Assembly (NCBI GenBank): GCA_016930015.1
Contig: JAFGHR010000038.1
Location: forward strand, 16,405-80,404
Direction of reading: 5' to 3'
Origin: Anaerolineae bacterium
GTDB lineage: Bacteria; Chloroflexota; Anaerolineae; Aggregatilineales; Aggregatilineaceae
Length of the DNA: 64,000 nucleotides
The notes under the pieces are model-generated. The model ran no database searches and was not told where the DNA came from. It saw only the letters and a list, made by a program, of their open reading frames with translations. Shown piece after piece: positions 39,379 to 58,101 of this stretch. Position 1 is the first letter of the stretch, and each line of letters opens with the position of its first letter. The translations under genes and the position numbers were made by a program.

Positions 39379-39465
39379 TGATTTCTGTTCACCGTTTACA
39401 AGGAAAATCCCTCGCACCAAGCGATGCCGCACGCGTTAATGCACATCGATACGAGAGCGGATGTG

Positions 39466-41112
39466 CTACAGTGTTTGAATGATACTTTGCAGCAGATCCT
39501 CATCAAGAAAACTACCTTTTTGTAATAATGCAGCGATCTGGTTGCTCAGGCGCCCACGTTCACGCGGAGTTAGCTCTTTGGCCGTCAGCACAATCACCGG
39601 AATCCGGCACAGCGCTTCATCGGACTTAAGGATATTGATGACTTGAAACCCATCCATACCCGGCATCATCAGATCGGTAATCACGACGTCCGGCTGCATC
39701 TTCCGCACCAGTTCAATGCCGCTGGCACCATCCGTTGCGATCTCGACCTTGTACGAACCGCGCGTTTGCAGAATTCGACTGATCAACCGGGCGGCGTCGG
39801 GATTATCTTCGATCACTACCACGCGTCCACCGGTTGTTTCGACCTGTTCCAACGCGGAGAGTATACCTTCCTCTGGCAGCGATTCCACCTGGCTGCTGTG
39901 TGAAACATCCACGTGCCGCGCCCATTGATCGCCCAAAATATGTTTTTCTACCGGCAGGGTATGGCCGGAGCAATTGACAACCACCACATCGTCAGGACGG
40001 ATATCACCATTGCGCACCATTTTGATCAACCCGGCAAACGCAACTGCCGTAGCTGGTTCAACCGACAACCCGTCACCGCGCGCCAGCAAGCGCATGACTT
40101 CAAACGCTTCTTCATCGCTGGCGCTTTCGGCAGCGCCGCCGTATCGCTGCATCAACTGCCACAACCACTCGTATGCCCGGCCCGGACGCCCTGTGCTGAG
40201 GGTCGCGATCACGGTTTGAGGGTTATCAACCGGGACGGCGATACGCTGCCCGGCTTTAAACGCATGGACCATTGGGGCGCATCCCTGCGATTGTACAATA
40301 CCGATAGAGGGCACTTTGTCCGCCAGCCCCAATTCGATCAGCTCTTGAAACCCCTTGGCAACACCAATCGGCCCCATACCCCCGCTGACACCCTGAATAA
40401 ACCAATCCGGCGCGCGCCAGCCCAGGTCTTCGGCGATTTCGTAAGCCATCGTTTTCATGCTTTCAATGGCCGCGATGCTCTTGATGCCGCGATCCAAAAA
40501 GAGGTTGCGGCTCTGGGCGAAACGGGCGGCGACCGCTTTCGTTTCATCATATGTGCCCGTCACTTTGATGACTTCGGCACCATATAATGCCACTTCCCGC
40601 ATTTTTTCGCCGGGCACCTGGCTCGTCAAAAACGCCCATAACTTGATCCCGGCGCGCGCTGCATAGGCAGAATACGCAATCGCGACGTTTCCGGTTGACG
40701 CGACGACCGCTTCTTCAATGCCCAACTCACGCAGCACTGATATCGCAACCGATGCCTGACGATCTTTAAATGAGCCGGTCGGCCCCTGGCGTTCATCTTT
40801 GATATACAGGTTTTTTAGCCCCAGCATGACCGCCAGGTTCGGCACCTGGAGCAGCGGCGTCCCACCTTCACCCATGCTCACAATGTAACGCGGGTCCAAC
40901 AGTGGCAGCAGCTCATAGTAGCGCCATAAACCGGGTTTCCGCCGGGCGAGCTGTTCGGGCCAGCCCGCTGCCAGCAGCGCTTCGAGATCATAACGCGCTT
41001 CCAGGATGTTTTCACCACAAACAGGGCAGGTGGTCTGCCTGCCATCATAGGTCGTCACATGTCCGCAGTTTGTGCAGTGAAGTTGTACTTGTTTGGCAAC
41101 TGGGTCATTCAA
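39466..41112 (-). CDS. Threonine-synthase-like PLP enzyme fused to C-terminal REC (response regulator receiver) domain
   Basis: Zn ribbon CTNCG...CPVCG; PLP Lys motif GPTGSFKDRQASVAISVLRELG; STGNVAIAYSAYAARAG; then VVVIEDNPDAARLISRILQTRG...QPDVVITDLMMPGMDG...PVIVLTAKELTPRERGRL...LLQKGSF. One uninterrupted 548-aa frame; REC is approx 39466-39828. Confidence 0.9.
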   Translation of the reverse strand: MNDPVAKQVQLHCTNCGHVTTYDGRQTTCPVCGENILEARYDLEALLAAGWPEQLARRKPGLWRYYELLPLLDPRYIVSMGEGGTPLLQVPNLAVMLGLKNLYIKDERQGPTGSFKDRQASVAISVLRELGIEEAVVASTGNVAIAYSAYAARAGIKLWAFLTSQVPGEKMREVALYGAEVIKVTGTYDETKAVAARFAQSRNLFLDRGIKSIAAIESMKTMAYEIAEDLGWRAPDWFIQGVSGGMGPIGVAKGFQELIELGLADKVPSIGIVQSQGCAPMVHAFKAGQRIAVPVDNPQTVIATLSTGRPGRAYEWLWQLMQRYGGAAESASDEEAFEVMRLLARGDGLSVEPATAVAFAGLIKMVRNGDIRPDDVVVVNCSGHTLPVEKHILGDQWARHVDVSHSSQVESLPEEGILSALEQVETTGGRVVVIEDNPDAARLISRILQTRGSYKVEIATDGASGIELVRKMQPDVVITDLMMPGMDGFQVINILKSDEALCRIPVIVLTAKELTPRERGRLSNQIAALLQKGSFLDEDLLQSIIQTL

Positions 41113-41113
41113 T

Positions 41114-44100
41114 TTACCGCTTCTCCTGATGGTTCCCCAACTGAATCTCCACCTGGTTTAACAAATGGTGTTCATCCACATCGTCTTTACGATACACATC
41201 TACGTGTTGCAGCGAATCACGTTCTTCGGCGCTGATGTCTTCGGCGGTGAGCACCAGCACCGGAATGCGAGCCGTCCGGTTGTTGGATCGCATTGCCTTT
41301 AATACTTCAAACCCGTCAATCTCTGGCATACGCAGGTCCAGGATCACCAGATCGATCGGTGATGCCGTCTGCTGAATGATGTCCAGCGCCTGCTGTCCCG
41401 TCGTCACCTGCAATACCTCGTAGGTGCCAAACGTTTCGAGCATCTCACGGAACACACGGATCGTTTCCGGCTTGTCGTCCACGAGCAAAATCCGCTGACG
41501 GGTGGCTTCAGCTTCGGCCTGTTGGACTGCCGTGACCAATTGTTCGCGCGTAAACGGCTTGATCAGGTAATTCGACGCCCCCAAACGGTAACCGCGCTCC
41601 ATATCGGCGTCTATGCTGCATACAATGATCGGCGTTCGGAAGGTTGGCTCAGCATCTTTGAGATGCGCTAACAAGTCCCAGCCCTGCTGTTCGTGCATGG
41701 CAACATCCAAGAGTATAACACGAGGTTGGTAGGCAACGGCTAACTCTTCCGCGTCTTCCAACCGGGTGACACCGATCACCTCGTACCCTTCGCGTGCCAG
41801 ATACTTCCGGTACAGGTCGATCGCTTTAACCTGTTCCTCAACAACCAACACAATCCGGCTGGCTGGTGGTGCAGGGGCACTCTCCTCTACCGGTTGGTCA
41901 CTGTATTCTTCATGCACGTCATCGCTGGCCCCGCCTTCGTCGGGTTCGACAGCATCTTCTTCTGGTGGTGGTGATACCGGGATCGAAATGCTGAAGGTTG
42001 ATCCGACGCCGACTTCACTCTCAACCCAGATGCGCCCCCCCTGAAGCTCCGTGAGCGATTTCGCCAGCGGCAGCCCCATACCGGTACCTTCAACGCGGCG
42101 CGTCAAGGAATTATCGACCTGCTGGAACGCCTCGAACAACAGCGGCATATCTTCTTCAGCGATACCAATGCCGGTATCGGATACCGAGACGTGGATAACT
42201 GGCTGGCCTTCCTCCGTTGTCGGGAAGGCCGTCAGCGTGACGCTGCCTTCGTTGGTGAACTTGCTGGCATTTGATACCAGGTTGAGCAGCACCTGTCGTG
42301 TGCGGAACTCGTCACCATACGCGTCGGGCAGATCGTCCGCTATTTCTGTGTACAACCGGAGCGACTTCTCACGCGAGAGGCCAACGGCGCTGGACATCAC
42401 GCCTTTGATCACCTCTTGCAGCTTAAAATAGGCAAAGGACAGCTCCATTTTGCCCGCTTCGATCTTCGCCTGGTCAAGAATATCGTTCACCAGGCCCAAC
42501 AGGTGGCGACCACTATCATAGATCGTCTGCAAATCCTCTTCCTGGGCGTCGGTCAGTGGGCCGTCGATACCCTTCAGGATCACGCGCGAGAAGCCAATGA
42601 TTGAGTTAAGCGGCGTACGCAGCTCGTGACTCATCGCGGCCAGGAAGTTTGTTTTCAGGTGGTCAACCTCAAGCAGCCGCACGTTCGCATCCTGAATTTC
42701 GCGCAGCAGCCGCGAGTTTTCGATGATCGCTGCCAGCGAACTGCTCAGGGTTTGGAGCAAACGTAAGTCATTTTCGTCAAATGCGTTCACTTCGTTGCTT
42801 TCACCCACCAGTACACCCACCAGCACACCCACCGCCTGAAGTGGCACCGCGATGACGGAGCGGGTATTTTTGTTGGATGGCAGACGGCGGGGATCGTTGG
42901 ATAGATCATCAATGATAACGGCCTCGTTGTGACGCGCCACCCAACCAATCAACCCGCGATCAAGCTCAATCGATGACAGATCGGTTTCCGCACCCACAGC
43001 ACCCACGTCGGCGCCTTTGACCATGTACTCACCGCTGGCATCAGGCAAAAAGATACTGGCGCTGGTCAGGTTCATTGTGCCGCGCAGGGTATTCACGACC
43101 TGGTCGAGCGTTTCATCCAGGTCGATAGCGGTCGCGGCTGCCGTTGTCACGCTGAACAAAAACGCCATCTCGTCGGCCCGCTGCTCAGAAACCTCAAATA
43201 ACCGCGCATTGTCAATGGCGGTTGCCACCAGGTCGGCCAGCGAGCGCAGCGCATTTGCATCATCATCGGTAAATGCACCAGGCTGGTTACTCTGGACATC
43301 CAGCGCGCCCACGATCTGGCCGCGTGTGATCAGTGGCAGTGCCATTTCGGAGCGTGTATTCGGAAGATACGGATTAAATTTGTGCACTATCTTTGCATCG
43401 GCGGTGTCAAGCGCGATTTGAGGCTCACCTTTTTGTGTAACCTGCCCGATCACCGAATCTGATCCGACCAGCAGGTGGTGCCGGATGCTCAAAAGCTGCT
43501 GCCCGGCCTCACCGGTTGACGCCACCAGATCGGCCCGTGCGTTTTCGTCGTTGACCAAAAACACCTGCACGTGGTCATATTCAAAGGCGTCGCGGATCAT
43601 GTTGATCACCTGCGACAGCAGTTCATCCAGCCGCAAAATCGTGGTAACCGCGCGGCTGATTTCAGCCGATATGCTCAACTGGCGTGCTCGCCGCTGCGCC
43701 TGCTGGAACAGCAGCATGTTTTCAAGCGATGTGGCCGCCTGGTCAGCCAATGACTCGTACAATCGTTTACTACCCGTGTTTAACGAGAGATGCCGGGGGA
43801 AGCCCAACAAGACCATGCCCAGCGATCGACCCGCTGACTTGAGTGGGATAAAAATCGCCGCCCGGATCGCCAGAGCTTCGAGCGCTTGTTTGGCGTCATC
43901 ATCCAGTGTTGGCGCTGTGGTTATATCGTCGATCCACGTGATATCGGGCGACATCATAACCGACCACAGCGGGAACTGCCGGGTACTATAACGTGTGCCG
44001 CTCAGATCGTCGGCCTGGTGAGCGCTCCAGCTTGCCATCACTTCAACGGCGGCATACGACATATCCGGCACTTCGGCGTGCAGCAGGTACAACAAGCCCT

Positions 44101-47100
44101 GGGAAACATCCAGCAGTTCGGCGTGTTGGATAAATGCCATCAGGACGTCTTGCGCGGCCTGGGCATTGGCTATTGCGCGGCTGATGTAATACAGGGCTGC
44201 CGTATCCTGGAGCGCGTCTTCGGTACGTGCCAGCAGCCGCTGGTTTTCAATCGTAATCGCGGCCTGGTCGGTCAGTGTGGACAACAAACGCCGTTCTTCC
44301 ACAGAAAATACACGCGGCTGCTTGTACCCCACGACCAACCACCCGACAGCCTCACCACGCACGCCCAGCGGAAAACTGCTGATCGCCGCCAATTCGAGCG
44401 CGTTCAGGCACGCTGCTTCCGCATCATCCGGTTGGTTTGCGTCCGGAATTCGCATCTCCTGCGTTAGTAAAGGCTGGAAAACCGATACATTACACGTGTC
44501 TTTCAGTTCAGATGGTTGGCTGGCGGCGATATACATGGTTTCGTGGCCCTCAAAATCATCATTTCTCAAAATGATATAGGCCGCATCAGGGAATAACACG
44601 TCAAGCTGCCAAAGCATCACTTTCAGCAGTTCGGACATATCAGAAACATGCGAGATCGAGCGGCTGGCTTCATACAACAAGGTTGTTTCGCGCAAACTGT
44701 CTTGCAGCGCACGCTCTAGCTCTTGCAGATCACTGATGTCTTGAAAGGCGCCAACGGCGGCGGTAATGTTTCCGTCACGGTCACGGATAGGCGCCACATT
44801 GGCCAGCAGGGAAATCCGGCTGCCGTCCGGATGGATGACTATCAGGTCGTCAACCAGCACCGGTTCCCCGGTGGAAAAAACGCGGGTCAGCGGCCATTCC
44901 TGGCTGGAATAAGCCATCCCTGTATCACTATGAACAATGGGGTATGATGCGGAAACTTGCGCGGCATCTTCCGCCTGCGCCAGCGGCCCCACCAACTCCA
45001 GCAGCCGTTGATTCGACAACATCACGTCGCCGGTGGGGGTAGCTACCATGATGCCGGTCGGCATGGTATCAACGATAATCTGCAATTCCTGGCGCTGGCT
45101 CTCGGCCTGATCAAACAAGCGGCGGTTTTCAGTAGCAACGGCGACCTGGCTGGACAATGTAGCCACAAGCTGAACATCTCGTTCGTCAATATCAGGCGCG
45201 TCAAATGCCCGGCCAATTTGTAAGACACCCACTATGTCGCTGCCAAGACGAACCGGCATTGCCAGATGTTTGCCATAGTATTGAATGGTTTCGTCCAATG
45301 CGCCGGTGGACGGCTGATCGTTTACCTGGTTGACGATGATCATTTTTCCGCGCTGAACCGCTTCAGTCAGCGCCATCGGGGCCTGTACATCGACATGATC
45401 GGGCCAATCGGTGTGAGACGCGACCACGCGCTGAATCCGCACGCCGTCCCCGGTTAGCAGTCCAAACCACCACCGGTCATAGTTGCCCGGCCCGGACACC
45501 GTCTTAAAGAGATGCTGAAGACCGGACTCGAAATCACTACCAATCTGACCGGCCAACTGACCGGCTTCGGCCAACGCCTGCGCACGGCGGGTTTCGGTTT
45601 GTGCTTCCTCGAACAGGCGTGCATTTTCGACGGCCAGCCCTACACGCCCGGCTAGAGTCTCCATCAGTATATAATCGTCATCTGTCAGTTCGCGATATCC
45701 TGGCATATCGACGACCAGCGTCCCGATCGTTTCACCACGAACCTGAATCGGCGTTTCGGTCTGATCGCCGGATAAAACCAGTTGGCCGTTGCCGAGTGGT
45801 TCCACCCGCAGTTGATCGTACACGTAGCCCGTCGGGATCGTGCCGCCGTGTTCTGCGTCATGCGACTGCCACGCCGATCGTGTTAGCTGGCGGTTGAGCG
45901 TGTTAATTTCCTGTACACGTTCCTGAGTCTCGGCCAGCAAGCGCGCATTTTCGATAGCAATCGCAATCTGATCGGACAGTACTTCAAACACCCGCACCAC
46001 GTCTTCATCAAATGCATCGGACTCCGTGCTTTGTAAGTCCAGCGCGCCGAAAACCCGATCTTCAATCTTGAGCGGCAGCCCCATTTCGGACCGGGTGGAA
46101 GGCAAGAACGGGTTGGGCTGCCAGGATACATCGGGTTTGCTTGTATCAGACGCGATGACAACCTGGCCGCGCGCCGTGACACGACCAATCAACGAATTCG
46201 AACCCACGCGTAACTTGTGCCCAAACTCAAGCAGTTGGCGCCCTGCTTCCCCGGTACTTTCGGTTAACACGGCATATTCACCCAGATTATCCAACATAAA
46301 AATCTGGACATGGTACACTGTGTCAAAACGGCGTCGAATCTGCCCAACCATTTCACGTAACAAGACATCGATATCGCGGATACTGGTCGCGATCCGTCCA
46401 ATCTCAGCCGCGATTTCCAGGTCACGCGCATGGTACTGAACACGCGCCTCCATGTTGTGGAACAGCGCGTCAACCATCTCGCGTGACTGCTCAAGTTCGA
46501 CAGCCATCCGGTTAAATGTCTCGGCCAATTCCACCATCTCACGCCCGCCGCTCGGCATGATCCGAAAATCAAGCTGACCTTCTCCTAACGCACGCGTGCC
46601 GTGTTGAAGCTGTCGGACGGGATGAATCACGCTTCGCCGGACTATCATGACAGCCGCCAGCCCAACCAACACGATCGCCCCTAACGCTACCCCCGCCGAA
46701 GACAGGAGTCCTTCCCACAAGGCTTGATCAATCGGGTCAGCCGGGATGCCAACAATAAAGTCCAACTGGAGTTCCGGGGCCTGCGAAATTGGCTGCGCCG
46801 CCGCGCGTGTCAGATACACCGCGCCATAACCTGGCACATCACGCCGTACCGTTTTGTCTAGCGGCACGTCATGCAGGTTGAGCGCTTCGATCGGCTTGCC
46901 TTTGTAAGTCGGATCAGAGTGGGCAATGATGTTTGTGTTGGAAAAAACAAGCGCCTCGAAAGCCACATTGGGGTTGGCTGCCACAAAGCTGGTGAATCCG
47001 TCCTCAAACTGGGCGAACATGATCGACACCAGCGACGCCATATTCAGGCTATCCGATGTCCTCTCAGGAGCAGAAACCTGGGTCATGAAAACGTCAAACG

Positions 47101-47284
47101 CTTTCATCGATTCCTGCAACGAACCGGCAATGGCCAGGCTTTGCTCACGCTTGGCGTCGAGCAGGGTATTGCGCTGGCGGACACCCTGCACAACCTGCAA
47201 CGCAGCGGCCAGCAGCAGCAAGGCCACAACTATGGTTACGATAATCTGGATTTGGATGCCTCGTTTACGTAGCATGGCGTTCAC
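41114..47284 (-). CDS. Giant multi-GAF hybrid histidine kinase (Cache/HAMP, ~7 GAF, PAS, HisKA, HATPase, 2x REC)
   Basis: HAMP-like SVIHPVRQLQHGTRALGEGQLDFRI; several LP(S/N)TRSEMxLPL GAF motifs; PAS followed by VGAFQDISDLQELERALQ; FLAAMSHELRTPLNSIIGFSRVI; LLNLVSNASKFTNEG; DTGIGIAEEDMPLLFEAFQQV; RIVLVVEEQ...; RILLVDDKPETIRVFREML. Confidence 0.93.
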   Translation of the reverse strand: MNAMLRKRGIQIQIIVTIVVALLLLAAALQVVQGVRQRNTLLDAKREQSLAIAGSLQESMKAFDVFMTQVSAPERTSDSLNMASLVSIMFAQFEDGFTSFVAANPNVAFEALVFSNTNIIAHSDPTYKGKPIEALNLHDVPLDKTVRRDVPGYGAVYLTRAAAQPISQAPELQLDFIVGIPADPIDQALWEGLLSSAGVALGAIVLVGLAAVMIVRRSVIHPVRQLQHGTRALGEGQLDFRIMPSGGREMVELAETFNRMAVELEQSREMVDALFHNMEARVQYHARDLEIAAEIGRIATSIRDIDVLLREMVGQIRRRFDTVYHVQIFMLDNLGEYAVLTESTGEAGRQLLEFGHKLRVGSNSLIGRVTARGQVVIASDTSKPDVSWQPNPFLPSTRSEMGLPLKIEDRVFGALDLQSTESDAFDEDVVRVFEVLSDQIAIAIENARLLAETQERVQEINTLNRQLTRSAWQSHDAEHGGTIPTGYVYDQLRVEPLGNGQLVLSGDQTETPIQVRGETIGTLVVDMPGYRELTDDDYILMETLAGRVGLAVENARLFEEAQTETRRAQALAEAGQLAGQIGSDFESGLQHLFKTVSGPGNYDRWWFGLLTGDGVRIQRVVASHTDWPDHVDVQAPMALTEAVQRGKMIIVNQVNDQPSTGALDETIQYYGKHLAMPVRLGSDIVGVLQIGRAFDAPDIDERDVQLVATLSSQVAVATENRRLFDQAESQRQELQIIVDTMPTGIMVATPTGDVMLSNQRLLELVGPLAQAEDAAQVSASYPIVHSDTGMAYSSQEWPLTRVFSTGEPVLVDDLIVIHPDGSRISLLANVAPIRDRDGNITAAVGAFQDISDLQELERALQDSLRETTLLYEASRSISHVSDMSELLKVMLWQLDVLFPDAAYIILRNDDFEGHETMYIAASQPSELKDTCNVSVFQPLLTQEMRIPDANQPDDAEAACLNALELAAISSFPLGVRGEAVGWLVVGYKQPRVFSVEERRLLSTLTDQAAITIENQRLLARTEDALQDTAALYYISRAIANAQAAQDVLMAFIQHAELLDVSQGLLYLLHAEVPDMSYAAVEVMASWSAHQADDLSGTRYSTRQFPLWSVMMSPDITWIDDITTAPTLDDDAKQALEALAIRAAIFIPLKSAGRSLGMVLLGFPRHLSLNTGSKRLYESLADQAATSLENMLLFQQAQRRARQLSISAEISRAVTTILRLDELLSQVINMIRDAFEYDHVQVFLVNDENARADLVASTGEAGQQLLSIRHHLLVGSDSVIGQVTQKGEPQIALDTADAKIVHKFNPYLPNTRSEMALPLITRGQIVGALDVQSNQPGAFTDDDANALRSLADLVATAIDNARLFEVSEQRADEMAFLFSVTTAAATAIDLDETLDQVVNTLRGTMNLTSASIFLPDASGEYMVKGADVGAVGAETDLSSIELDRGLIGWVARHNEAVIIDDLSNDPRRLPSNKNTRSVIAVPLQAVGVLVGVLVGESNEVNAFDENDLRLLQTLSSSLAAIIENSRLLREIQDANVRLLEVDHLKTNFLAAMSHELRTPLNSIIGFSRVILKGIDGPLTDAQEEDLQTIYDSGRHLLGLVNDILDQAKIEAGKMELSFAYFKLQEVIKGVMSSAVGLSREKSLRLYTEIADDLPDAYGDEFRTRQVLLNLVSNASKFTNEGSVTLTAFPTTEEGQPVIHVSVSDTGIGIAEEDMPLLFEAFQQVDNSLTRRVEGTGMGLPLAKSLTELQGGRIWVESEVGVGSTFSISIPVSPPPEEDAVEPDEGGASDDVHEEYSDQPVEESAPAPPASRIVLVVEEQVKAIDLYRKYLAREGYEVIGVTRLEDAEELAVAYQPRVILLDVAMHEQQGWDLLAHLKDAEPTFRTPIIVCSIDADMERGYRLGASNYLIKPFTREQLVTAVQQAEAEATRQRILLVDDKPETIRVFREMLETFGTYEVLQVTTGQQALDIIQQTASPIDLVILDLRMPEIDGFEVLKAMRSNNRTARIPVLVLTAEDISAEERDSLQHVDVYRKDDVDEHHLLNQVEIQLGNHQEKR

Positions 47285-49584
47285 TCGTCTGTTCTGTTGG
47301 CGGGGGGTTCTGGCGTTTTCTCATCAGGGGAAATCAACCGAATGGATGTAGTCGGCACTCGGAGCGCTAAGCCCAGTTCCCGCACGGCGGTTCGTAATAT
47401 ATGATCAACATCGGTCATGGCAAGGAACTTGCTCGAAATCTGGTTCACCAGCACCTCGCGCTGCGCTACACGCTGGCTTTGTTCCAACAAGCGGATATTG
47501 TCGGCTGTGAGCGCCAGGCGCGCGGTGAGTTCCAGCGCCGTTTGACGCACGTTACGGGTATACCGCCCTCTCGGAATCTGCCATTCGATAGCGCCCAACA
47601 CCTCGTCACGCAGCAAAATGGGGACGGCAAACACAACGATATCGCCGTCAAAACGTTCGGTAATCTGCCGGGCGCGCATAGCGTCTACCTGAAGCTCACT
47701 CCACCCATCTTCCTCAGACACAGCCTGACCAACCGCCGCCTGTAATGTTTCGGGGCCTTTAAGGCGCACAATATCTTGCCATGCGGATTGGGTCAGCATA
47801 CGGTTCAGGTTCTCGATATCAGCCATACGCGCGGTTGATTCGGCAAAAAGGGCCGCGTTCTCGATAGCAATCGATATTTGATCGGCCATGCCCTGAAACA
47901 ACTCAACATCACGATCATCAAACGCGTTGGGATCACGGCTTTGCAAATCCAATGCGCCAATAATGCGGTTACCACTGCGCAGGGGCAAGGCCATCTCTGC
48001 ACGTGTATCCGGCAAAAACTCATTACGCCTATGGATCGGATTCTCCGACGTGTCGAGCGCCACTACCGCATGCCCCGAAGCCGTGACGCTGCCGATAACG
48101 CTCTGGCTGCCGATCTCAAGGTAATGCCCACGCCGCAACAACTGCTGCCCGGTCACACCGGTTGAGGCGCGCAGGTTTGCGCGGCCCGTTTGTTCATCGG
48201 TGAGAAAAACCTGGGCATGGTATATCATGTCGAAACGCACACGGATCAGATCGACAACTTCTTCAAGCAGCGTATCCAGGTCGTGAATACGTGTGAGAAT
48301 CCGGCTGACTTCCAGGGTAGTTGCCAGGTTATGTGTACGCTGTTCCACACGATCTTCCAGTTCCGATATCGCGTTCAATAACTGCCCTGACATGGCACCG
48401 AAGGCATTGTTCAACACGCCAATTTCATCCTGGCGCACCATTTGGGGCAGTTCGATATCGAGTTGTCCGGCTGAAATCTGGCGAGCTGACTCCGTCAGGC
48501 GAATCAGTGGTCGGGCAATAACCAGGCGTGCTACAAACGCAGTCGCCAGGGCAAGCACTGCTACACCAAACCCAATCGCCAATACAAGAAACACGCCTTC
48601 TTCCAGGGCTTTGTTGTTGATCTGGTTCATTGGCGTTTCGGCCAGAATGGCGAATTGGGGCCCTTTGGGTACGGCGGCAAAGGTGTAAAACCCCAGTACT
48701 TCACGGTCCAGCAGCGTACTATCATAACGCGATACACCCGTTTGACCGCGCTGAGCCAGGAGGAACCCTTCAGAATCACTCGCGTCGACAAAATAGTCCT
48801 GGTCGTGCGCAGGAGAAGCCAGCAATCCCGCCGCGGTCAGGAGGTAAACATGCATATCCAGATCACTCTGTGGGAAATCTGCCAGCGATGAAAAGAGATC
48901 GGGTAGATACACATCATCTGTGGCCAGGACCAGATCCTGTGTGAACACCAGGTAACCGACACGGTACCCGGTCCCAGTCACATTCCAATCCGCTTCGAGC
49001 GCAAACACAACATCCACAGACGGATCACCAGCCGTATCCTGGTAAATATCCGTGAGTGTGTCCCACGTTTCAAGTACGTCTGCCGCGATGAGATCGTCGG
49101 CTGGTGTTTTTGCCCTATCAGGAGTTTCAGAGCTGAAGCGCACCACGCCACCAACTTTGGACACATCCATAACCGCATCACCACCCCTGGTAAGCAGCCG
49201 TACCCGTGAGAGTGAGTACAGGGTGTCCAGATAATGACGGAACGTGGATTCGGCTATCTGGCGGCGGCCAGCTTTTAGCTCATCTGACAGGCCGGTGGGC
49301 GCCACGTATAGATATTCAAGGATGTTCTGCTGGTCAATCGGGTTAGAGATCAGCCGCTCAACCTCGGAAACGAGCGTACGCATATCCTGTTCGGTCCGCG
49401 TCGTTTCTAAGGGGCCAAGCATTTCCAGGCGAGCTTCGTGCTCGTCACGGATCGCGGCATACCGGCGACTGACCGTCATTGGCACCAAAATGCTGAGTGC
49501 GGGCACCAGGATCGCGACCAGAAAGATCACGGTCAGCTTGGTACTGATGGACCAATGTAAAACGTTTAAGCGGCGCAGCACCAT
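47281..49584 (-). CDS. Membrane receptor: periplasmic sensor + HAMP + two GAF modules, no output domain
   Basis: MVLRRLNVLHWSISTKLTVIFLVAILVPALSILVPM...; HAMP LVIARPLIRLTESARQISAGQLDIELP; LPDTRAEMALPLRSGNRIIGALDLQSRDPNAF. Start likely 49584 rather than 49629 (removes a 41-bp overlap). Confidence 0.85.
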   Translation of the reverse strand: MVLRRLNVLHWSISTKLTVIFLVAILVPALSILVPMTVSRRYAAIRDEHEARLEMLGPLETTRTEQDMRTLVSEVERLISNPIDQQNILEYLYVAPTGLSDELKAGRRQIAESTFRHYLDTLYSLSRVRLLTRGGDAVMDVSKVGGVVRFSSETPDRAKTPADDLIAADVLETWDTLTDIYQDTAGDPSVDVVFALEADWNVTGTGYRVGYLVFTQDLVLATDDVYLPDLFSSLADFPQSDLDMHVYLLTAAGLLASPAHDQDYFVDASDSEGFLLAQRGQTGVSRYDSTLLDREVLGFYTFAAVPKGPQFAILAETPMNQINNKALEEGVFLVLAIGFGVAVLALATAFVARLVIARPLIRLTESARQISAGQLDIELPQMVRQDEIGVLNNAFGAMSGQLLNAISELEDRVEQRTHNLATTLEVSRILTRIHDLDTLLEEVVDLIRVRFDMIYHAQVFLTDEQTGRANLRASTGVTGQQLLRRGHYLEIGSQSVIGSVTASGHAVVALDTSENPIHRRNEFLPDTRAEMALPLRSGNRIIGALDLQSRDPNAFDDRDVELFQGMADQISIAIENAALFAESTARMADIENLNRMLTQSAWQDIVRLKGPETLQAAVGQAVSEEDGWSELQVDAMRARQITERFDGDIVVFAVPILLRDEVLGAIEWQIPRGRYTRNVRQTALELTARLALTADNIRLLEQSQRVAQREVLVNQISSKFLAMTDVDHILRTAVRELGLALRVPTTSIRLISPDEKTPEPPANRTDE

Positions 49585-49588
49585 AACT

Positions 49589-51289
49589 TTACTCCTCCGC
49601 TTCGTCCGCTGTGTTGTCAAGGTGAACACTGCCCAGCCGAATCTGCGTCTGGGTTGCGCCTAACGCCTTTTGGAACTGCGAAGCCGCCGTCGCAAGCAGT
49701 GAATGTAAATCGTTGCTAGTCTGTAGATGCGATGTAACCTGGCTGACCAACTGCTCGCGTTGTGCTGTCATCTGAGCTTGTTCGAACAACCGGACATTTT
49801 CCAGCGAGAGTGCCAGCCGGTCGGCCACCGCCTGGGCCAATTCCAGCGCATAGGGCACCCAACGGCGGTCACCCGTTTTGCTGAACTCGATCGCCCCTAA
49901 CAATTGGCCGCGCAGATGGATCGGGACACACAACACCTGTCTGTCACCGCGCTGCTCAAGCCGGGCCTGGCCATCGGTCACGGTTTCGTTTAACACCGTC
50001 GAAACGGACTCAGGAGATGTAATGCGGCCCTGATGCCAATCAAAGCCGGTCGTCATCCCCATACGTTCTTCAAGGTACACGCCCCAGGTCGCACCAACAA
50101 GCTGCCGGTTCAAGCGTGCCAGATCACGCCGGGTGGCTTCGATCTGGGCTGTCAGGCGATCATGTTCCTGGCGGCCATAATTCAGCTCGTCTACTTGCTG
50201 CCCACTATGCAGCACCATAGCCATATGATTGGCGATGGCCCGCAGCGCATCCAACACGACGGGCGTAAAGGTATCCGGCGTCGCGCTGTGAAGGTCTAAC
50301 ACACCAAACGGCAGCCGGTCACCGACCCGCAGCGGCAAAAGAAGTTCACTCCGGGTAGCGGGCAAAAAGCTGGTACGCTGTGTCTCTGACATATTCTCAT
50401 CGATCAGGATCGGGTCAATCTGGCGAAGCGCATCGTTGACCAGGTTGTACTCATCCGGCAGCAGCAGGCTGTCTTCCTCCAGCAAACGGCGTCCAATAAA
50501 CCCGGTGCTGGCCTTCAAAACGGCGAGTCCGCTGTCAGGATCGGCCAGGTAAACTTGCGCATGATACAGCCCAAACGTATCTCGAAGCTGCTCGACCGCA
50601 AACGTCAGCGCTTCATCGCTGCCATGTATGGCTGTGAGCGTCTGGCTGGTTTGCGCCGTCTTGCCGAGTAATTCCGACAGCATACGCTGCTGTTGGAGGC
50701 TGTATTGAATACCGCTTTTAAACACCCACAATATGGCCGAGTTGATAAACCCAACAGCGAGGAGAATGATAATGGTCGTGCGCACACCCTCAAGCGCTGT
50801 AATACCGGCGGGCGTGGGTTCCATATCCACCAAAACCTGAAATACACCGCCTACGACAACAGCCACCGCCAGCGTCAACGCGACTACCAGCAAGCCCGAC
50901 CGTCGCAGCAGTACACCGGCGGCAGTGAGTGGGGTGAGCAGGACTATGATAAACGGTGTGTCCATGCGATAGTCGGGGAATATGGTCAGCAGCGACACCG
51001 CCATGATATTGGTTACAAACAGGATGCGTGCCTGCTCTTGCCATCCACGCTGGATCAACCGGTGTGTTAATAACGCAAGCGCCAGGGTGACCGGGACAAA
51101 AAGCGTCGCAGCATCAATGTTGTCTGTGCTGAAACTATCAAGAAGCCACCATAACAACAACGGCAAAACAGCAAGGATGGTCCCCAGCCACATCGCGTTT
51201 ATGGTCAGCAAACGCTGTGCCTGCTGCCGTTCATTCGCGTCGTCGTATGCGTCGCTGATGCGGATATAACGTAGTATTCGTTCTCTCAT
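49589..51289 (-). CDS. Integral-membrane multi-GAF protein, no output domain
   Basis: N-terminal hydrophobic segments, then GAF (FLPATRSELLLPLRVGDRLPFGVLDLHSATPDTF) and second GAF-like (VLCVPIHLRGQLLGAIEFSK). Confidence 0.85.
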   Translation of the reverse strand: MRERILRYIRISDAYDDANERQQAQRLLTINAMWLGTILAVLPLLLWWLLDSFSTDNIDAATLFVPVTLALALLTHRLIQRGWQEQARILFVTNIMAVSLLTIFPDYRMDTPFIIVLLTPLTAAGVLLRRSGLLVVALTLAVAVVVGGVFQVLVDMEPTPAGITALEGVRTTIIILLAVGFINSAILWVFKSGIQYSLQQQRMLSELLGKTAQTSQTLTAIHGSDEALTFAVEQLRDTFGLYHAQVYLADPDSGLAVLKASTGFIGRRLLEEDSLLLPDEYNLVNDALRQIDPILIDENMSETQRTSFLPATRSELLLPLRVGDRLPFGVLDLHSATPDTFTPVVLDALRAIANHMAMVLHSGQQVDELNYGRQEHDRLTAQIEATRRDLARLNRQLVGATWGVYLEERMGMTTGFDWHQGRITSPESVSTVLNETVTDGQARLEQRGDRQVLCVPIHLRGQLLGAIEFSKTGDRRWVPYALELAQAVADRLALSLENVRLFEQAQMTAQREQLVSQVTSHLQTSNDLHSLLATAASQFQKALGATQTQIRLGSVHLDNTADEAEE

Positions 51290-53046
51290 GATGGGCGATC
51301 CTGACTTGTATCATCAGTATCGGCGTCCGGGCTGGAACCATTGCCGGGGAATGTGGGCGGCGCACCCGATCCGGGTGGGGCGTTATCCAATGATACAAGA
51401 CGGATTGCCGCCTGATCTGCCCCTAACGCTTCTCCCAGCGTGCTAAGGGCCGTACTGAGCACATCTTCCACAGCGGTCAGCCCCTGAAGCCGGGCTGAGA
51501 TCGTGTTGATTTCCTGTTCACGTTCGGCAGCGGCCCGCGCCTGTTCAAACAAGCGCACATTTTCCAGGCTGAACGCCATGCGTTCAACGACCGACTGCAA
51601 CATAGCGCGCACTTCGCTCTGATTGTGCGTGTCGGAAAGACTCACTTCGATGGCACCAACCGGCTGCCCGCGAATACTGATCGGCACAGCAATCACCTGG
51701 TCATCACCCGCTTCATGGGTAACAATACGGTTTCGGAGGGCAGCTTCGTGCATCGCCGGTGTCCACTCCACCGGCCCCGATTTCATACCCTCGCCGGATA
51801 CGTGAATGCCGGACTGATTAACATCCTGGGTGACCATGTATTCCTGCCAGGATCGGGCCGTAAGCTGGCGGTTGAGCCGTTGAATTTCACGCAGGTTCGT
51901 TTCACTTTCCAGGAACAAGCGCCGGTTCTGGAGCAAACCGCGCTGCTGGGATTCAAACAGGCGCGCATTTTGGATCGCCTGGCTTACCTGGGTGGCGATA
52001 ACACGCACAGCCTCAATGTCTTCCTCGCTGAAGGCATTAGGCCGTACACTGTGAATATTTAACACGCCGAATAAGTTTTCGCCGACTATCAGCGGTACGG
52101 CTAATTCTGAGCGTGTGTCTTCCAGCAATGTCACACGCTGGTAACCCATATCGACCAGGTTCCCAACGCACGTCAACTGGTTAGTGGAAACAGCTTCACC
52201 CACAACCGTTCGTGCCCCAAGCGGCACACGAAAACCCTGGGCCAGCAGCGACTGGCCGATATCGCCGGTGCTGGCAACCAGATTGGCATAGTCACGTTTA
52301 TCGTCAACCAACAATATCTGCACATGGAAGAACGCGAACCGGTCGCGGAGCAGGTCAACGGTGCGGCTTAACAATTCGTTCAGGTTTAGAATACGCGAGA
52401 GGGCCGAGCCGACTTCGGCGGCAGCACGTGTTCGGGTCACAGCCCGATTAGCACGTACCAGGCTGCGCTGCAAATTCCACGAAAAAATCCACAACAGCAG
52501 CGCCAACACGGTTAACAGCAGGGCGCTGACGGTTGTTTCGTAGAGCAGGTCCTCAAATGGTTCTGGTCCGGCTGATAACATATCTTCAGATTGAAGGTAA
52601 GCGGTGAACGGCAGCAACCCCCAGACAAACACTGTAGCGACCAGAATCGCCCAGGTGCCATAGGCCAATCCGATAAACGCCAAAGCGAGGGGAATGGTCA
52701 GCAGCGTCCGCGGAACAATACCATCGGTCAGCAGGCTAAACAGGCTTGTCCCCACCAGAAAAAACGTAACCGACAACTTAGCCCACCGGGCATGACCGCG
52801 CCGCGCCAGCCATAACGTGAGCAATGACCACACCAGCAATACCGGTGCCAACACATCGCTCAGTTTGGAAACGGCGCTTTCAGCCTCTACGTCCATGACG
52901 GCCATCACCCCCAATGAGAGAGCAAACAGCAGCCCCAAAAACGCTGTTCCACTACTCAATGTCAGTAGCAACCGGGTGCGTATGGCCTGATCTGACTCGT
53001 GGTACTTATGCTGAGCAACAAACAGGGTACGAAACAGCTTGATCAT
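51286..53046 (-). CDS. Integral-membrane multi-GAF protein, no output domain
   Basis: N-terminal hydrophobic segments; LLEDTRSELAVPLIVGENLFGVLNIHSVRPNAF; VIAVPISIRGQPVGAIEVSLS. 4-bp overlap with the neighbour. Confidence 0.85.
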   Translation of the reverse strand: MIKLFRTLFVAQHKYHESDQAIRTRLLLTLSSGTAFLGLLFALSLGVMAVMDVEAESAVSKLSDVLAPVLLVWSLLTLWLARRGHARWAKLSVTFFLVGTSLFSLLTDGIVPRTLLTIPLALAFIGLAYGTWAILVATVFVWGLLPFTAYLQSEDMLSAGPEPFEDLLYETTVSALLLTVLALLLWIFSWNLQRSLVRANRAVTRTRAAAEVGSALSRILNLNELLSRTVDLLRDRFAFFHVQILLVDDKRDYANLVASTGDIGQSLLAQGFRVPLGARTVVGEAVSTNQLTCVGNLVDMGYQRVTLLEDTRSELAVPLIVGENLFGVLNIHSVRPNAFSEEDIEAVRVIATQVSQAIQNARLFESQQRGLLQNRRLFLESETNLREIQRLNRQLTARSWQEYMVTQDVNQSGIHVSGEGMKSGPVEWTPAMHEAALRNRIVTHEAGDDQVIAVPISIRGQPVGAIEVSLSDTHNQSEVRAMLQSVVERMAFSLENVRLFEQARAAAEREQEINTISARLQGLTAVEDVLSTALSTLGEALGADQAAIRLVSLDNAPPGSGAPPTFPGNGSSPDADTDDTSQDRPS

Positions 53047-54749
53047 AGGTGCGATTTCTCCTGCGCTGTCTCAGAGGTTTGTTCGGAAAGCACGCCCAAT
53101 CGTATCGTAATTTCATGGGCGTCGAGGGCTTCCTGCAAATGGTGAGCCGCACGCTGCATGATCGCATCCACACCGGTTGCCGCTTGAAGCTCGGTGCCAA
53201 TGTCGTTGATTAATGCTTCGCGCTGGGCAGTACGTTGGGTTTCATCCAGCAGCCGCCGGTTTTCCATGGCCAGACCCAAACGCTGGCCCACGGCTTCGAT
53301 CAAATCCAGCGCCCCATCGGGAATTTCGGCCTGCGAATCGAGTTCGAACTCCATTGCCCCAACTACTTCGTCCCGCACAACAACCGGCAGCGCAACGACG
53401 CGGCGGCCATTGACGACATCGGTAATAACCGCATTCTGGCTGACGGCTTGTTCGAGGGTGGGTGTCCAATCCGCTTCAGCCAACACCTGTTCCGACACAA
53501 AATCGACGGTTAGCGCTGTCGCCGTTTCCTGTGTTCGGATGAAGTCTGACCATGCACGCCCTGTGAACTGGTATTTCAGCCGCTCAATCTCGCGCAGGCT
53601 GGCCTGAGTTTGCTGGTGGAGCGCTTGTTTTTCGCGCTCGCTGCGCCCCACGGCTTGATACAAACGCAGACCATCAACCGCCATGGCGATCTGTTGTGCG
53701 ATCGATGTCAGGACGGCGACATGTATCTCTTCAAAAGCATTGGCATGCACACTCTGTACGTCCAGCGCCCCAACAACCTGGTCAGCAATAACTAACGGTA
53801 TCGCCAACTCCGTTCGGGTTTCGGGCAGCAAATCGTGTGAGTGGTAGACACTATCACGGCGCATATCCGCAATCAGCAGTGGTTCACGATTAATTGCTGT
53901 CCGGCCTACCACGCTCAACCCGCCAATATCCAATGCGTACGCCTGAGTCATCAGTTGTGCGCCGACAACGCCGGTAGCGGCCCGCAGTTCCATAGACTGG
54001 CTGTTCGGCGCCGCAAGGTAGAGCTGGACATGATAGATTGACTCAAACCGCTGCTGGATATGGTTCGCCGTTTCGATCAGGAACTCGTCAATATCCCCCC
54101 GTGAAAACTGGCCATTTGTTATCACATGACCCAGCTCAATCAGGTGACGAGACGTTTCTTCCAGGCTGATTTCATGCGTTGCCAGACGGCTGCCGCGCAT
54201 TACCAGCGTACAAAGTCCACCCAGCATCAGCGTCCACAGCGCCAGGGCGACAAATACCGCCAACCGTTCATCCTGGGCAGCCCCGCCCAGGTCGCCATAA
54301 TCCTTAAAGGCGGCGGCGGTCGCCACCAGCAAAGCATACCCGGTAATCATGGCGTTGATGCGCTCACTGAGCAGCAAACCGCCGAGCACAACCGCCATCC
54401 ATAACACAGCCCAACCGCGCAGCGATCCCCAATCTCCCACAACCAGCAGCAGCGTGCTTTCAACCAGCAGCCCTGTGACCAGCACGCCTGCGCCAGAAGC
54501 CAGATCTCCCCGCCGGGTAAGCGCTATCGCCGCCACACTGAACAATAGCAGCGCAGCGGTAACAAGGCTCAAATACGGCTGTTCCCAGCCCAACAGTTCC
54601 AGAACGGTATCAAAAGCGCCCGGCAGCGCCAGCGCCAGGCGTGATACGACGAACATCACGGCAACGGCATAAATAGATATCGCTCGCCACCGGGGAAACG
54701 ACGCAGGATAGGGTGACAGTGAAAATACTGAAGCGAGAAACTTTCGCAT
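53043..54749 (-). CDS. Integral-membrane multi-GAF protein, no output domain
   Basis: N-terminal hydrophobic segments; LLPETRTELAIPLVIADQVVGALDVQSVHANAF; VVALPVVVRDEVVGAMEFELD. 4-bp overlap with the downstream gene. Confidence 0.85.
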   Translation of the reverse strand: MRKFLASVFSLSPYPASFPRWRAISIYAVAVMFVVSRLALALPGAFDTVLELLGWEQPYLSLVTAALLLFSVAAIALTRRGDLASGAGVLVTGLLVESTLLLVVGDWGSLRGWAVLWMAVVLGGLLLSERINAMITGYALLVATAAAFKDYGDLGGAAQDERLAVFVALALWTLMLGGLCTLVMRGSRLATHEISLEETSRHLIELGHVITNGQFSRGDIDEFLIETANHIQQRFESIYHVQLYLAAPNSQSMELRAATGVVGAQLMTQAYALDIGGLSVVGRTAINREPLLIADMRRDSVYHSHDLLPETRTELAIPLVIADQVVGALDVQSVHANAFEEIHVAVLTSIAQQIAMAVDGLRLYQAVGRSEREKQALHQQTQASLREIERLKYQFTGRAWSDFIRTQETATALTVDFVSEQVLAEADWTPTLEQAVSQNAVITDVVNGRRVVALPVVVRDEVVGAMEFELDSQAEIPDGALDLIEAVGQRLGLAMENRRLLDETQRTAQREALINDIGTELQAATGVDAIMQRAAHHLQEALDAHEITIRLGVLSEQTSETAQEKSHL

Positions 54750-54754
54750 AGAGG

Positions 54755-57472
54755 TTACTCTTTGACCGACTCAGAGGCATGGGCGCCGTTATTGTTTGAT
54801 TTTGATGGTGATTTTAACCGCACACGTGCACGGTTTGCGCCTAACACATGCCCCAGGTCTTGCATTGTGTGTTCCAGCAAGTCATGCAAATCGCTTTGCT
54901 GTTGAAGCTGGGATGTGATCTGACTGAGTGATTCTTCATATTGTGCGCGTTGATGTGCCAGGTCAAACTGCCGTGCGTTTTCCAGGGCGATCGCGATCTG
55001 GTTTCCGATTTGTTGCAGCAGCGTCAGATCGGTGGGGGTATAGATTCGAGCCCGTTTGTGAGCAATACTCAGCGCACCGATAGCCCGTCCCCCGGCGATC
55101 AGGGGTACGACCAGCACGGCATTCAGTCCTTTTTCGACCAACTGCCGGTGATCATTGTATGTGGAACTGCGCAGATCAGGCACGAGAATCGGCATTTGGG
55201 TCTGTACCACTTCTTCCACGCTCGAACCGGCAACCGGTTGGATCGTTTCAGCCGGCTCGCTGATCCCGTTCAACTCATAAACGCGTATCTGGCCCGCGCT
55301 ACCTGCTCCGGTCTGCGGAAAGGTCAAGGCCAGGCACACCTGGTCGGACGGTAACAAATTGGAGATGACATCGGACACACGCCAGATTATCTCCGTCCGG
55401 TCAAATGTGCTGGTCACCAGCCGCCCAAATGTGCCAATCCGCTCCAACTGGTTGGCACGGCGCTGTATCTCAGTGAAAAGAGCCGCGTTTCTCAGCCCGG
55501 TGGCGATCTGAACCGCAATGGCCTGAACCGTGTTTTTGTCCTCAGCATCAAACGCCTGGACCCCATCAGCAGCGCCCAACACAAGCGTCCCGATCAGATC
55601 ATCATGCAGCAGCAGCGGCGCCAGCACCATCGACTTGAGTTGAAGGGCCTGGAAGCGTTCGCGGCTTGGCCCTAACAGCGTTTCGGCGGCGGCGACATCA
55701 TCAATGATGAGTGGTGCGCGATAGGTTTGAAAGTGTTTGTAAACGCCAAATGATTTGAGTGGAATCAGCGCGTTGGCCTGCGAGCGTAACGGCTGCTCGG
55801 CCACCAGGTTGCCATTTGCCGGAACCTGGTCAAAGCGGATAATGGCCGCATAGTCCAGCTTGAGTATGTGAGACAAACGCTGGCACGTAGTTTGCAGCAC
55901 ATCCCCACCGACCAGGTTGGCGCTCACCTGTCGCGCCGTCTCGTATACAGCCTCCAACAGCCCGGCACGCCGCGCCAACTGTTCAGTCTGTTTAGTTGTT
56001 TGTGCCTGCAATGCGCTGTGTTGCAGCCCTAAACTTATGTAATTACTTAACCGGTGCAGCAGGCGTATCTCCATCGCAGAAAAAATATGCGGGTCGGTAT
56101 AGGCCGTCATCAGGACATGTGTGATCTTGCCACCGGCCATAACAGGAAACATCGCCAACGCGCGAATCTGCTGCTGGATGAAGTGCTCGCGTACCGTTTC
56201 ACTCATGATCGAGGCCGTTTTGAGATCGTTCACCAGCACCGGCGCGCCTGTAGCCAAAGTCTGCCAGTGTACGTGAAAGTCTTCAAAAGCCAGCCCCGTA
56301 TTTGGACTGGTGTCACTGGTGCCTTGAGCGGAAACACTCACCTCGGTTGACAAAGATACCGGTTGGTCTGCACTATCAAACTGCACAGCTTCTATAAACA
56401 GGTCATGGGGTGCCGGGTCGATGTGTTCATAAACAGTTTTTAGCCATGTGGGTAAGCTGGTCATATCGGCCAGCGCCTGCCCCATGTTGTGCAGTTGGTG
56501 CACTTCAGCCGACAGTGTCCGGTTCTGGTGCAGCATGGCGATCTGTGTAGCCAGCGCCTGTAAGCCTGCCAATTCGCCGGGCGCTAACCGTTCACCCCCC
56601 ACCATCAGCGTGCCGATCAGGTCGCCGCCGGTCTGTATCGGGAGCAGGGCCAGCCAATCAGGAAACCGCCGGTCGTACTTCTCCAGTTTTTCGGGTGTAA
56701 CCAGCGATGACAATCGCGGGGCATGTATGTGGACCGGCTGGTTTTGCCGGAGTTGTGGAATCACCGCGTGAAACGGGTAATCGCTGGCAGCGAGCACCCG
56801 TTCGGTGACCTTATCCGGCTCGTGGGCCGTTCGCACAAACGAACGGATACGAGCCAGCCCGTCATTCTTAAAGTCATAATATGCCAGTTCAACACGGCTG
56901 AACCGGTCGCCAAGATATCCGGCAACGAGGTTCACGATCGTTTGCGGCGTGTGATCGGCGGCAAGATGTGGACCAAGCGCCAATGCGCGCGTGAGGGGTG
57001 TGGCCTGCAAATGTTCAACCGCCAGCGCTAATGTGGGTGCCAGGGTAAGCAGCGCCAACCGCAGCGGTTGAAGCTGTGCCGCGTCAGGCGGCAGTTCCAC
57101 CTGCAAAACACCGATAGGTTTATCACCACACAACAGGGGCACAGCCCACTGGTTTGTTTTCGCTTCTGTGACGGGTAATACCGGCTCGTGTTGTTCCAGC
57201 GCCAGGGCAGCCGCTGACGCCGGGAGTGGAGTTATCGCGGTGTCCGGCGGAATGCCGTGCCCGGCCCAACGCTCATACGTCCCATCATCACCTCGCAAGT
57301 ACACATCAACCCGTGTGATGGAAACAAATTGTTTGGTAAGCTGCTCTAACAAACCATCGAGAAACGGCTGAAGGCGCATCTCTCGGTGAGTGGCCTGGCC
57401 AATGGTCTGGCTTAAGCGCCGTATGCCTCCCTCATCAGGTGGTAAATGGTTGTTTTGTTGGCGGATAGACAT
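54755..57472 (-). CDS. Soluble multi-GAF protein, no output domain
   Basis: 905 aa without a clear TM; repeated GAF signatures (LLLHDDLIGTLVLGAADGVQAFDAEDKNTVQAIAVQIATGLRNAALF; VPLIAGGRAIGALSIAHKRARIYTPTDLTLLQQIGNQIAIALENARQF). Confidence 0.85.
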   Translation of the reverse strand: MSIRQQNNHLPPDEGGIRRLSQTIGQATHREMRLQPFLDGLLEQLTKQFVSITRVDVYLRGDDGTYERWAGHGIPPDTAITPLPASAAALALEQHEPVLPVTEAKTNQWAVPLLCGDKPIGVLQVELPPDAAQLQPLRLALLTLAPTLALAVEHLQATPLTRALALGPHLAADHTPQTIVNLVAGYLGDRFSRVELAYYDFKNDGLARIRSFVRTAHEPDKVTERVLAASDYPFHAVIPQLRQNQPVHIHAPRLSSLVTPEKLEKYDRRFPDWLALLPIQTGGDLIGTLMVGGERLAPGELAGLQALATQIAMLHQNRTLSAEVHQLHNMGQALADMTSLPTWLKTVYEHIDPAPHDLFIEAVQFDSADQPVSLSTEVSVSAQGTSDTSPNTGLAFEDFHVHWQTLATGAPVLVNDLKTASIMSETVREHFIQQQIRALAMFPVMAGGKITHVLMTAYTDPHIFSAMEIRLLHRLSNYISLGLQHSALQAQTTKQTEQLARRAGLLEAVYETARQVSANLVGGDVLQTTCQRLSHILKLDYAAIIRFDQVPANGNLVAEQPLRSQANALIPLKSFGVYKHFQTYRAPLIIDDVAAAETLLGPSRERFQALQLKSMVLAPLLLHDDLIGTLVLGAADGVQAFDAEDKNTVQAIAVQIATGLRNAALFTEIQRRANQLERIGTFGRLVTSTFDRTEIIWRVSDVISNLLPSDQVCLALTFPQTGAGSAGQIRVYELNGISEPAETIQPVAGSSVEEVVQTQMPILVPDLRSSTYNDHRQLVEKGLNAVLVVPLIAGGRAIGALSIAHKRARIYTPTDLTLLQQIGNQIAIALENARQFDLAHQRAQYEESLSQITSQLQQQSDLHDLLEHTMQDLGHVLGANRARVRLKSPSKSNNNGAHASESVKE

Positions 57473-57610: not shown

Positions 57611-57988
57611 TTATGATCTGCCATTCCGCAGGAAACTGAATACCTGCTCAGGAAACCGGTCAATATCGATCGGTTTGGTGATGAACCCGTCACACCCCGC
57701 AGCGTTTGTTTCTTCCAGCACGTCGCGCATCACGTTTGCTGTCAGCGCCACAATGGGAACATCGTCAAGGTCGGGTATCTGGCGCAGATGATTTGTGGCT
57801 GTCAAACCATCCATTTCGGGCATGTTGATGTCCATCAAAATGAGATCAGGCCGGTGCTTTTCAGCCATTCGAATACCTTCAACTGCCGAAAAGGCCCCGA
57901 CGACCTCGCAGCCCTCGGACCTTAAGATACGCTGTACCAGGATTAGATTGTCGCGATTGTCTTCAACGTAAAGAATACGAGGAGTCAT
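57611..57988 (-). CDS. Single-domain response regulator (CheY/DivK-like)
   Basis: MTPRILYVEDNRDNLILVQRILRSEGCEVVGAFSAVEGIRMAEKHRPDLILMDINMPEMDGLTATNHLRQIPDLDDVPIVALTANVM...FITKPIDIDRFPEQV. Start refined to 57988. Confidence 0.93.
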   Translation of the reverse strand: MTPRILYVEDNRDNLILVQRILRSEGCEVVGAFSAVEGIRMAEKHRPDLILMDINMPEMDGLTATNHLRQIPDLDDVPIVALTANVMRDVLEETNAAGCDGFITKPIDIDRFPEQVFSFLRNGRS

Positions 57989-58101
57989 CGGCTCTATGTT
58001 CCTTACGGGCATTAACTAAACGGCCCGGAAAAATTGAATATCTTAAACCTTTATTATTTTATCATAGAAACCGTCTTTACCGTACGTTAATTTTTATAAA
58101 C

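Follow-up and report, generated by a model that had tools for sequence, protein, structure and literature searches.

We show that five receptors encoded in one operon of the window (the whole 64,000-nucleotide stretch of DNA analysed here) end in the first elements of a GAF domain (linker helix, helix B and strand 1), a fragment that is kept as a protein end across the class Anaerolineae and that we call the stub. As each set of such sensors is encoded beside one shared histidine kinase, the stub is probably the plug by which one kinase is connected to many sensors. On balance we favour the reading that it is a conserved C-terminal module by which kinase-less receptors are coupled among themselves and to a kinase that they share, through a direct contact that we infer. 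Docking, dimerisation or signalling to the kinase, the roles put forward in an earlier note on this DNA, are in keeping with the operon context.

The receptor operon of the window

The five tails singled out in the earlier note were located in the translations of five consecutive minus-strand open reading frames, as their C-termini, and a 55-residue profile match marks the stub in each. W1 (905 aa, 54755..57472; stub 54809..54973) carries several GAF domains before the stub. W2 (568 aa, 53043..54749; stub 53091..53255), W3 (586 aa, 51286..53046; stub 51391..51555) and W4 (566 aa, 49589..51289; stub 49628..49792) share an architecture of multi-pass membrane segment, GAF, degenerate GAF and stub, while W5 (782 aa, 47281..49629; stub 47329..47493, 14-16 aa before the stop) has a membrane anchor of two hydrophobic segments, then HAMP, GAF, degenerate GAF and stub. 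These assignments come from reading frames and Pfam, with hydropathy for W2 to W5; the membrane segments are a simple hydropathy count that also flags some probable false segments. The description of the receptors as output-less is confirmed by Pfam, which gives GAF in all five, HAMP in the 782-aa protein and zero output domains.

The receptor genes are tightly packed, with stop and start codons that overlap or lie a few bases apart, and the stop of W5 is overlapped by the start codon of the shared hybrid histidine kinase (2056 aa, 41114..47284, minus strand). Reading frame, Pfam and hydropathy give this kinase membrane segments, HAMP, about seven GAF domains, PAS, HisKA, HATPase and two receivers. 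On the same strand lie a stand-alone receiver at the upstream end of the operon (57611..58012) and two recurrent operon members, a receiver-HisKA-HATPase protein (38110..39432) and a PLP-enzyme (PALP) fused to a receiver domain (39466..41112). The PALP in this fusion is of threonine-synthase type. Stub-receptor operons of several families regularly include the fusion (for example L142:1002-2669 and L149:5642-7345), and it would be unusual for a PLP enzyme to be controlled by a phosphorelay. The receptors and kinases of the operon also share a recurrent short form of GAF that has an LNRxLTxxxW helix and covers just the second half of Pfam's GAF model, as in the second GAF of W4 (49592-50707) and the matching region of the 2056-aa kinase.

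A GAF start kept as a protein end

That the tails look like the beginning of a GAF domain, as had been proposed, is borne out by solved structures. The stub profile hits the N-terminal helices of GAF domains of the phytochrome/cyanobacteriochrome type (8w26, E=2.2e-8; 6oap, 2.6e-6; 2lb5, 2.3e-4), to which, as to those of the GAF families PF01590 and PF13185, we regard the stub as homologous, and both these matches and the helices in predicted models give it the N-terminal helices that lead into strand 1. In contrast to a complete GAF domain, with its antiparallel sheet, ligand pocket and closing helix, the stub has neither the pocket nor the remaining strands and final helix: the protein end is at most 66 residues away and no remainder lies downstream. 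Comparison of 23 stubs with Pfam and NCBIfam gave zero GAF model matches, and no curated family in either covers the stub.

The shared piece was earlier put at about 50 residues; it is real, but is refined here to about 54, the preceding RLFEQ helix belonging to it too. The proteins had also been said to end right after the IRL motif. The motif does lie near the stop, but a tail of variable length follows it, with 12-35 residues in the window's proteins and 0-66 in others. Most of these tails carry a negative charge, and A, E, G, P, S and D are abundant in them. Within the stub, helix B has small residues at the conserved positions A36, G41 and A43, and position 52 in strand 1 is polar (R/Q/E) as against F/Y in GAF1. 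Adaptation to the missing fold was considered as an explanation of the polar residue and set aside; it may instead be ancestral, because a full-length relative (L092) also reads IRL.

An AlphaFold model of the cytosolic part of W4 (105 sequences, mean pLDDT 92) predicts one long helix at 285-330, continuous with the last GAF, then helix B at 334-349 and an extended IRLGS segment that has no strand partner and is ordered to residue 360, with disorder beyond. For a second receptor lineage (lineage 2, described below), a model from 13 sequences shows the same hairpin and a poorly ordered IEL segment; all predicted models are of monomers. Foldseek with the model returned GAF/phytochrome structures only and nothing specific to the stub.

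Judged from sequence, the similarity among the window's five stubs is far above chance: the profile scores these seed copies at E-values between 1e-25 and 1e-27, and it also recovers a sixth, independent copy elsewhere in the same genome (E=3.3e-10). Building a profile from the five tails and looking for proteins that end there had been proposed as a check. Among distinct matches of 25 bits or more in the loci fetched, including reading frames that are not closed inside the locus, 213 of 218 end at most 66 residues before the stop (median 14), against 0/262 within 100 residues of the stop for a control profile built on the normal beginning of GAF1 in these proteins. The observation that would have spoken against a stub, namely that the motif always continues into a full GAF, was therefore not made: five of the 218 matches continue into a complete GAF, namely L092, a kinase from the class (58 bits), and L123, L127, L128 and L129 from other classes (27-40 bits). 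The stub-like full-length GAFs of L092, L123, L127 and L128 are found in kinases, the last three outside the class Anaerolineae. In the family of the window's genome, strong matches end 7-66 residues before the stop, and the matches inside long proteins are all weak.

Between orthologues from seven genomes, identity is 66-76% in the stub and 16-24% directly after it, and within each protein the stub ranks first or nearly so for conservation, equal to or above most other parts. Terminal position and conservation together lend strong support to the earlier claim of a conserved stub rather than random truncation.

Distribution and a second receptor lineage

The profile of the five tails matches in 17 of the 18 genomes of the family (E<=0.001). 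A broader profile from 23 stubs, for which the best candidates per genome were scored, matches in 83/121 genomes of the order and 126/249 of the class, with few matches in the phylum outside the class; these tallies count matches, and most of the genomes are metagenome-derived drafts. Outside the class, a single genome (L148-L149, G364:C528) has a complete stub array, kinase and PALP-receiver fusion included; it is the only such case in the phylum sample and may reflect horizontal transfer or misplacement. A scan of 84,980 named species with lineage-2 stubs found 17 loci, each with a strong terminal stub match and all in Chloroflexota (Anaerolineae, Thermoflexia and unclassified Chloroflexi), several of them in the same genomes as in the other searches, and a scan with W3 found zero relatives. 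No description of the stub or of the receptor arrays was found in the open-access literature.

Lineage 2 consists of HAMP-GAF-stub receptors, some with Cache (L043-L053), and is found in most genomes of family f1 (f1, f2, f7 and f34 are working family labels). Its genes usually adjoin one for a periplasmic binding protein (ABC_sub_bind, NMT1 or Peripla_BP), which suggests binding-protein-dependent sensing, and at several loci a HAMP-multi-GAF histidine kinase lies nearby. The context of the stub differs between the two lineages, a degenerate GAF preceding it in the arrays and a complete GAF in lineage 2. A circularly permuted GAF, in which the stub would complete the degenerate GAF of its own chain, was accordingly rejected as a general explanation, because the lineage-2 stub follows a complete GAF.

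Operons in other families

In f1, f2 and f7, three families of the order, W1 to W5 stand in identical order before the large kinase. When stubs are compared by their sequence alone, the nearest stub from another family occupies the same operon position in 39/50 cases; by this measure stubs keep a position-specific identity across families. The partner kinases of the window and of other families combine HisKA, HATPase and receiver, as hybrid histidine kinases do.

A different arrangement is seen in f34, where arrays of about 6-12 stub proteins are followed by a ParA/MinD-type ATPase (L131:4791-5579; L142:5788-6594; further loci L150-L164), a soluble hybrid kinase and the PALP-receiver fusion. 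By hydropathy count, 17/17 f34 kinases are without a predicted membrane segment and most of their receptors have one. Because the kinases are soluble, most receptors are membrane-bound and the receptors carry no output, a separate contact must pass the signal in this family. The kinases begin with a basic peptide such as MPKKPKIDKRLDKLFQDIKPEE, followed by a Pro-rich linker and half a GAF; in all 17, the GAF after the disordered linker is reduced to its last strands and last helix. The peptide pattern, M[PS]KK...RL(D/E)xLF, resembles a ParA-activating peptide. In AAP-type ParA positioning, the ParA/MinD ATPase gene adjoins that of a cargo protein whose N-terminus is a short basic peptide (PMC7993993), an arrangement that we find in f34 only and that is absent from the window's operon.

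Proposed coupling to a shared kinase and the alternatives

The stub is the best candidate for assembly and signal transfer, because it is common to all receptors, is conserved like the GAF domains and has no sensing role. In the proposed mechanism, its long helix would extend the preceding GAF's coiled coil, helix B would fold back onto this helix, and the I-x-L segment would pack on the hairpin or on a partner. The stub ends of several different receptors would then assemble with one another and with the kinase they share; the sensing part of each receptor would detect a different cue and the stub would relay the state, and the kinase would integrate these states and phosphorylate the operon's receivers. 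In f34, where the kinase is soluble, the ParA-type ATPase probably positions the kinase-receptor cluster. Coupling is favoured by the terminal position of the stub relative to the control, the conservation drop after it and its two GAF contexts, and also by the W1-W5 order kept in three families, the soluble kinases of f34, the position-specific stubs and the ordered hairpin of the model. Against it, the f1 kinase, with a membrane anchor, HAMP and GAFs of its own, could sense without the receptors; the GAF or HAMP regions could be the route of coupling, the stub being a mere cap; and the IEL segment of the lineage-2 model (13 sequences) is poorly ordered.

GAF linker helices usually dimerise, and the stub could accordingly pair with its own copy in a homodimeric helical bundle, capping the last GAF's coiled coil and stabilising the receptor dimer, with output passing through another surface or with the receptors acting as buffers or decoys. 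The small residues of helix B would suit close helix packing, and the model shows a helical hairpin. However, a stub sequence proper to each operon position across families exceeds the needs of a generic cap, and the kinase-less receptors and soluble kinase of f34 need some contact. We therefore hold this reading to be possible but somewhat unlikely.

A more specific form of coupling would have the stub supply the N-terminal part of a partner's incomplete GAF, such that two chains share one GAF-like domain; the partner would be the half GAF of the f34 kinases or, elsewhere, the degenerate GAF of receptors and kinase. The complementary halves, a GAF start on the receptors and a GAF end on all 17 f34 kinases, suggest such a split, as does the occurrence of stub-like full-length GAFs in kinases. 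The half-GAF profile also scores the ends of these full-length GAFs slightly above the GAFs that precede stubs (median 22.9 vs 21.5), the median for GAFs in kinases being 12.6. The half GAF is nevertheless at least as similar to the degenerate GAF that precedes the stub, so that with this profile the stub's own GAF type is inseparable from the degenerate GAF, and a bare half is not seen in the window's kinase. We consider this sharing of a domain unlikely, and give the same low standing to a whole network in which helix A, helix B and strand 1 come from receptors and the rest from kinases or neighbouring receptors. If such a network did exist, multi-receptor clusters would be built with the shared domain as their plug, a ParA ATPase would move or space them in one family, and the whole would amount to a sensory array independent of MCP and CheA.

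Origin of the stub by truncation is likely, since full-length versions exist and the arrays are paralogous. That it is still a functionless vestige, the start of the next GAF of a truncated ancestral kinase spread by duplication, is very improbable and already contradicted: the stub is conserved at the level of GAF domains or above, with a sharp drop at its end, and is kept as the end of more than 200 distinct proteins. Its place among the best-conserved parts of each protein therefore speaks against a decaying remnant, a frameshift or a mis-called end alike. The last two, including programmed frameshifting of proteins that really run on into a GAF as the five exceptional matches do, can be dismissed almost entirely and are likewise already contradicted, because the same ends recur in many genomes, the next gene's frame opens before the stub gene's stop or at most 60 nt from it in 83/89 pairs, and three-frame translation of 193 regions downstream of stub stops shows a GAF remainder in only two, both where the first GAF of the next stub open reading frame starts.

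Significance and comparison with known systems

Here we have defined a short module that is absent from Pfam and NCBIfam and that marks kinase-less receptors in Anaerolineae, a large and little-studied class. If coupling is true, it shows how one histidine kinase hears five to a dozen separate receptors, a many-receptors-one-kinase wiring known mainly from chemotaxis and stressosomes.

Sensing by GAF and HAMP domains is shared with multi-sensor hybrid histidine kinases, of which the window's kinase is one, but the stub operons place much of the sensing on separate kinase-less chains. Stressosomes are built from paralogous sensors (RsbR paralogues) with variable N-termini and one common conserved C-terminal assembly module. 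The stub receptors likewise end in a conserved module, but they differ in having a histidine kinase instead of an RsbT-kind kinase, and Pfam scans of the operon proteins of the window and other families gave no match to the STAS domain. The Pfam scans of operon proteins gave GAF, HAMP, PAS, HisKA, HATPase, receiver, PALP and ParA only, and thus no MCP signalling domain, CheA or CheW. With chemoreceptor arrays positioned by ParA-type ATPases (TlpT-PpfA; ParC/ParP), the stub operons have in common that several receptors are without kinase activity and the kinase is separate, and f34 additionally shares the ParA-type ATPase and an activator-like basic N-terminal peptide on the cargo (PMC7993993). 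In contrast to these arrays, the stub operons use a HisKA-type hybrid kinase rather than CheA, and their receptors end in a GAF stub.
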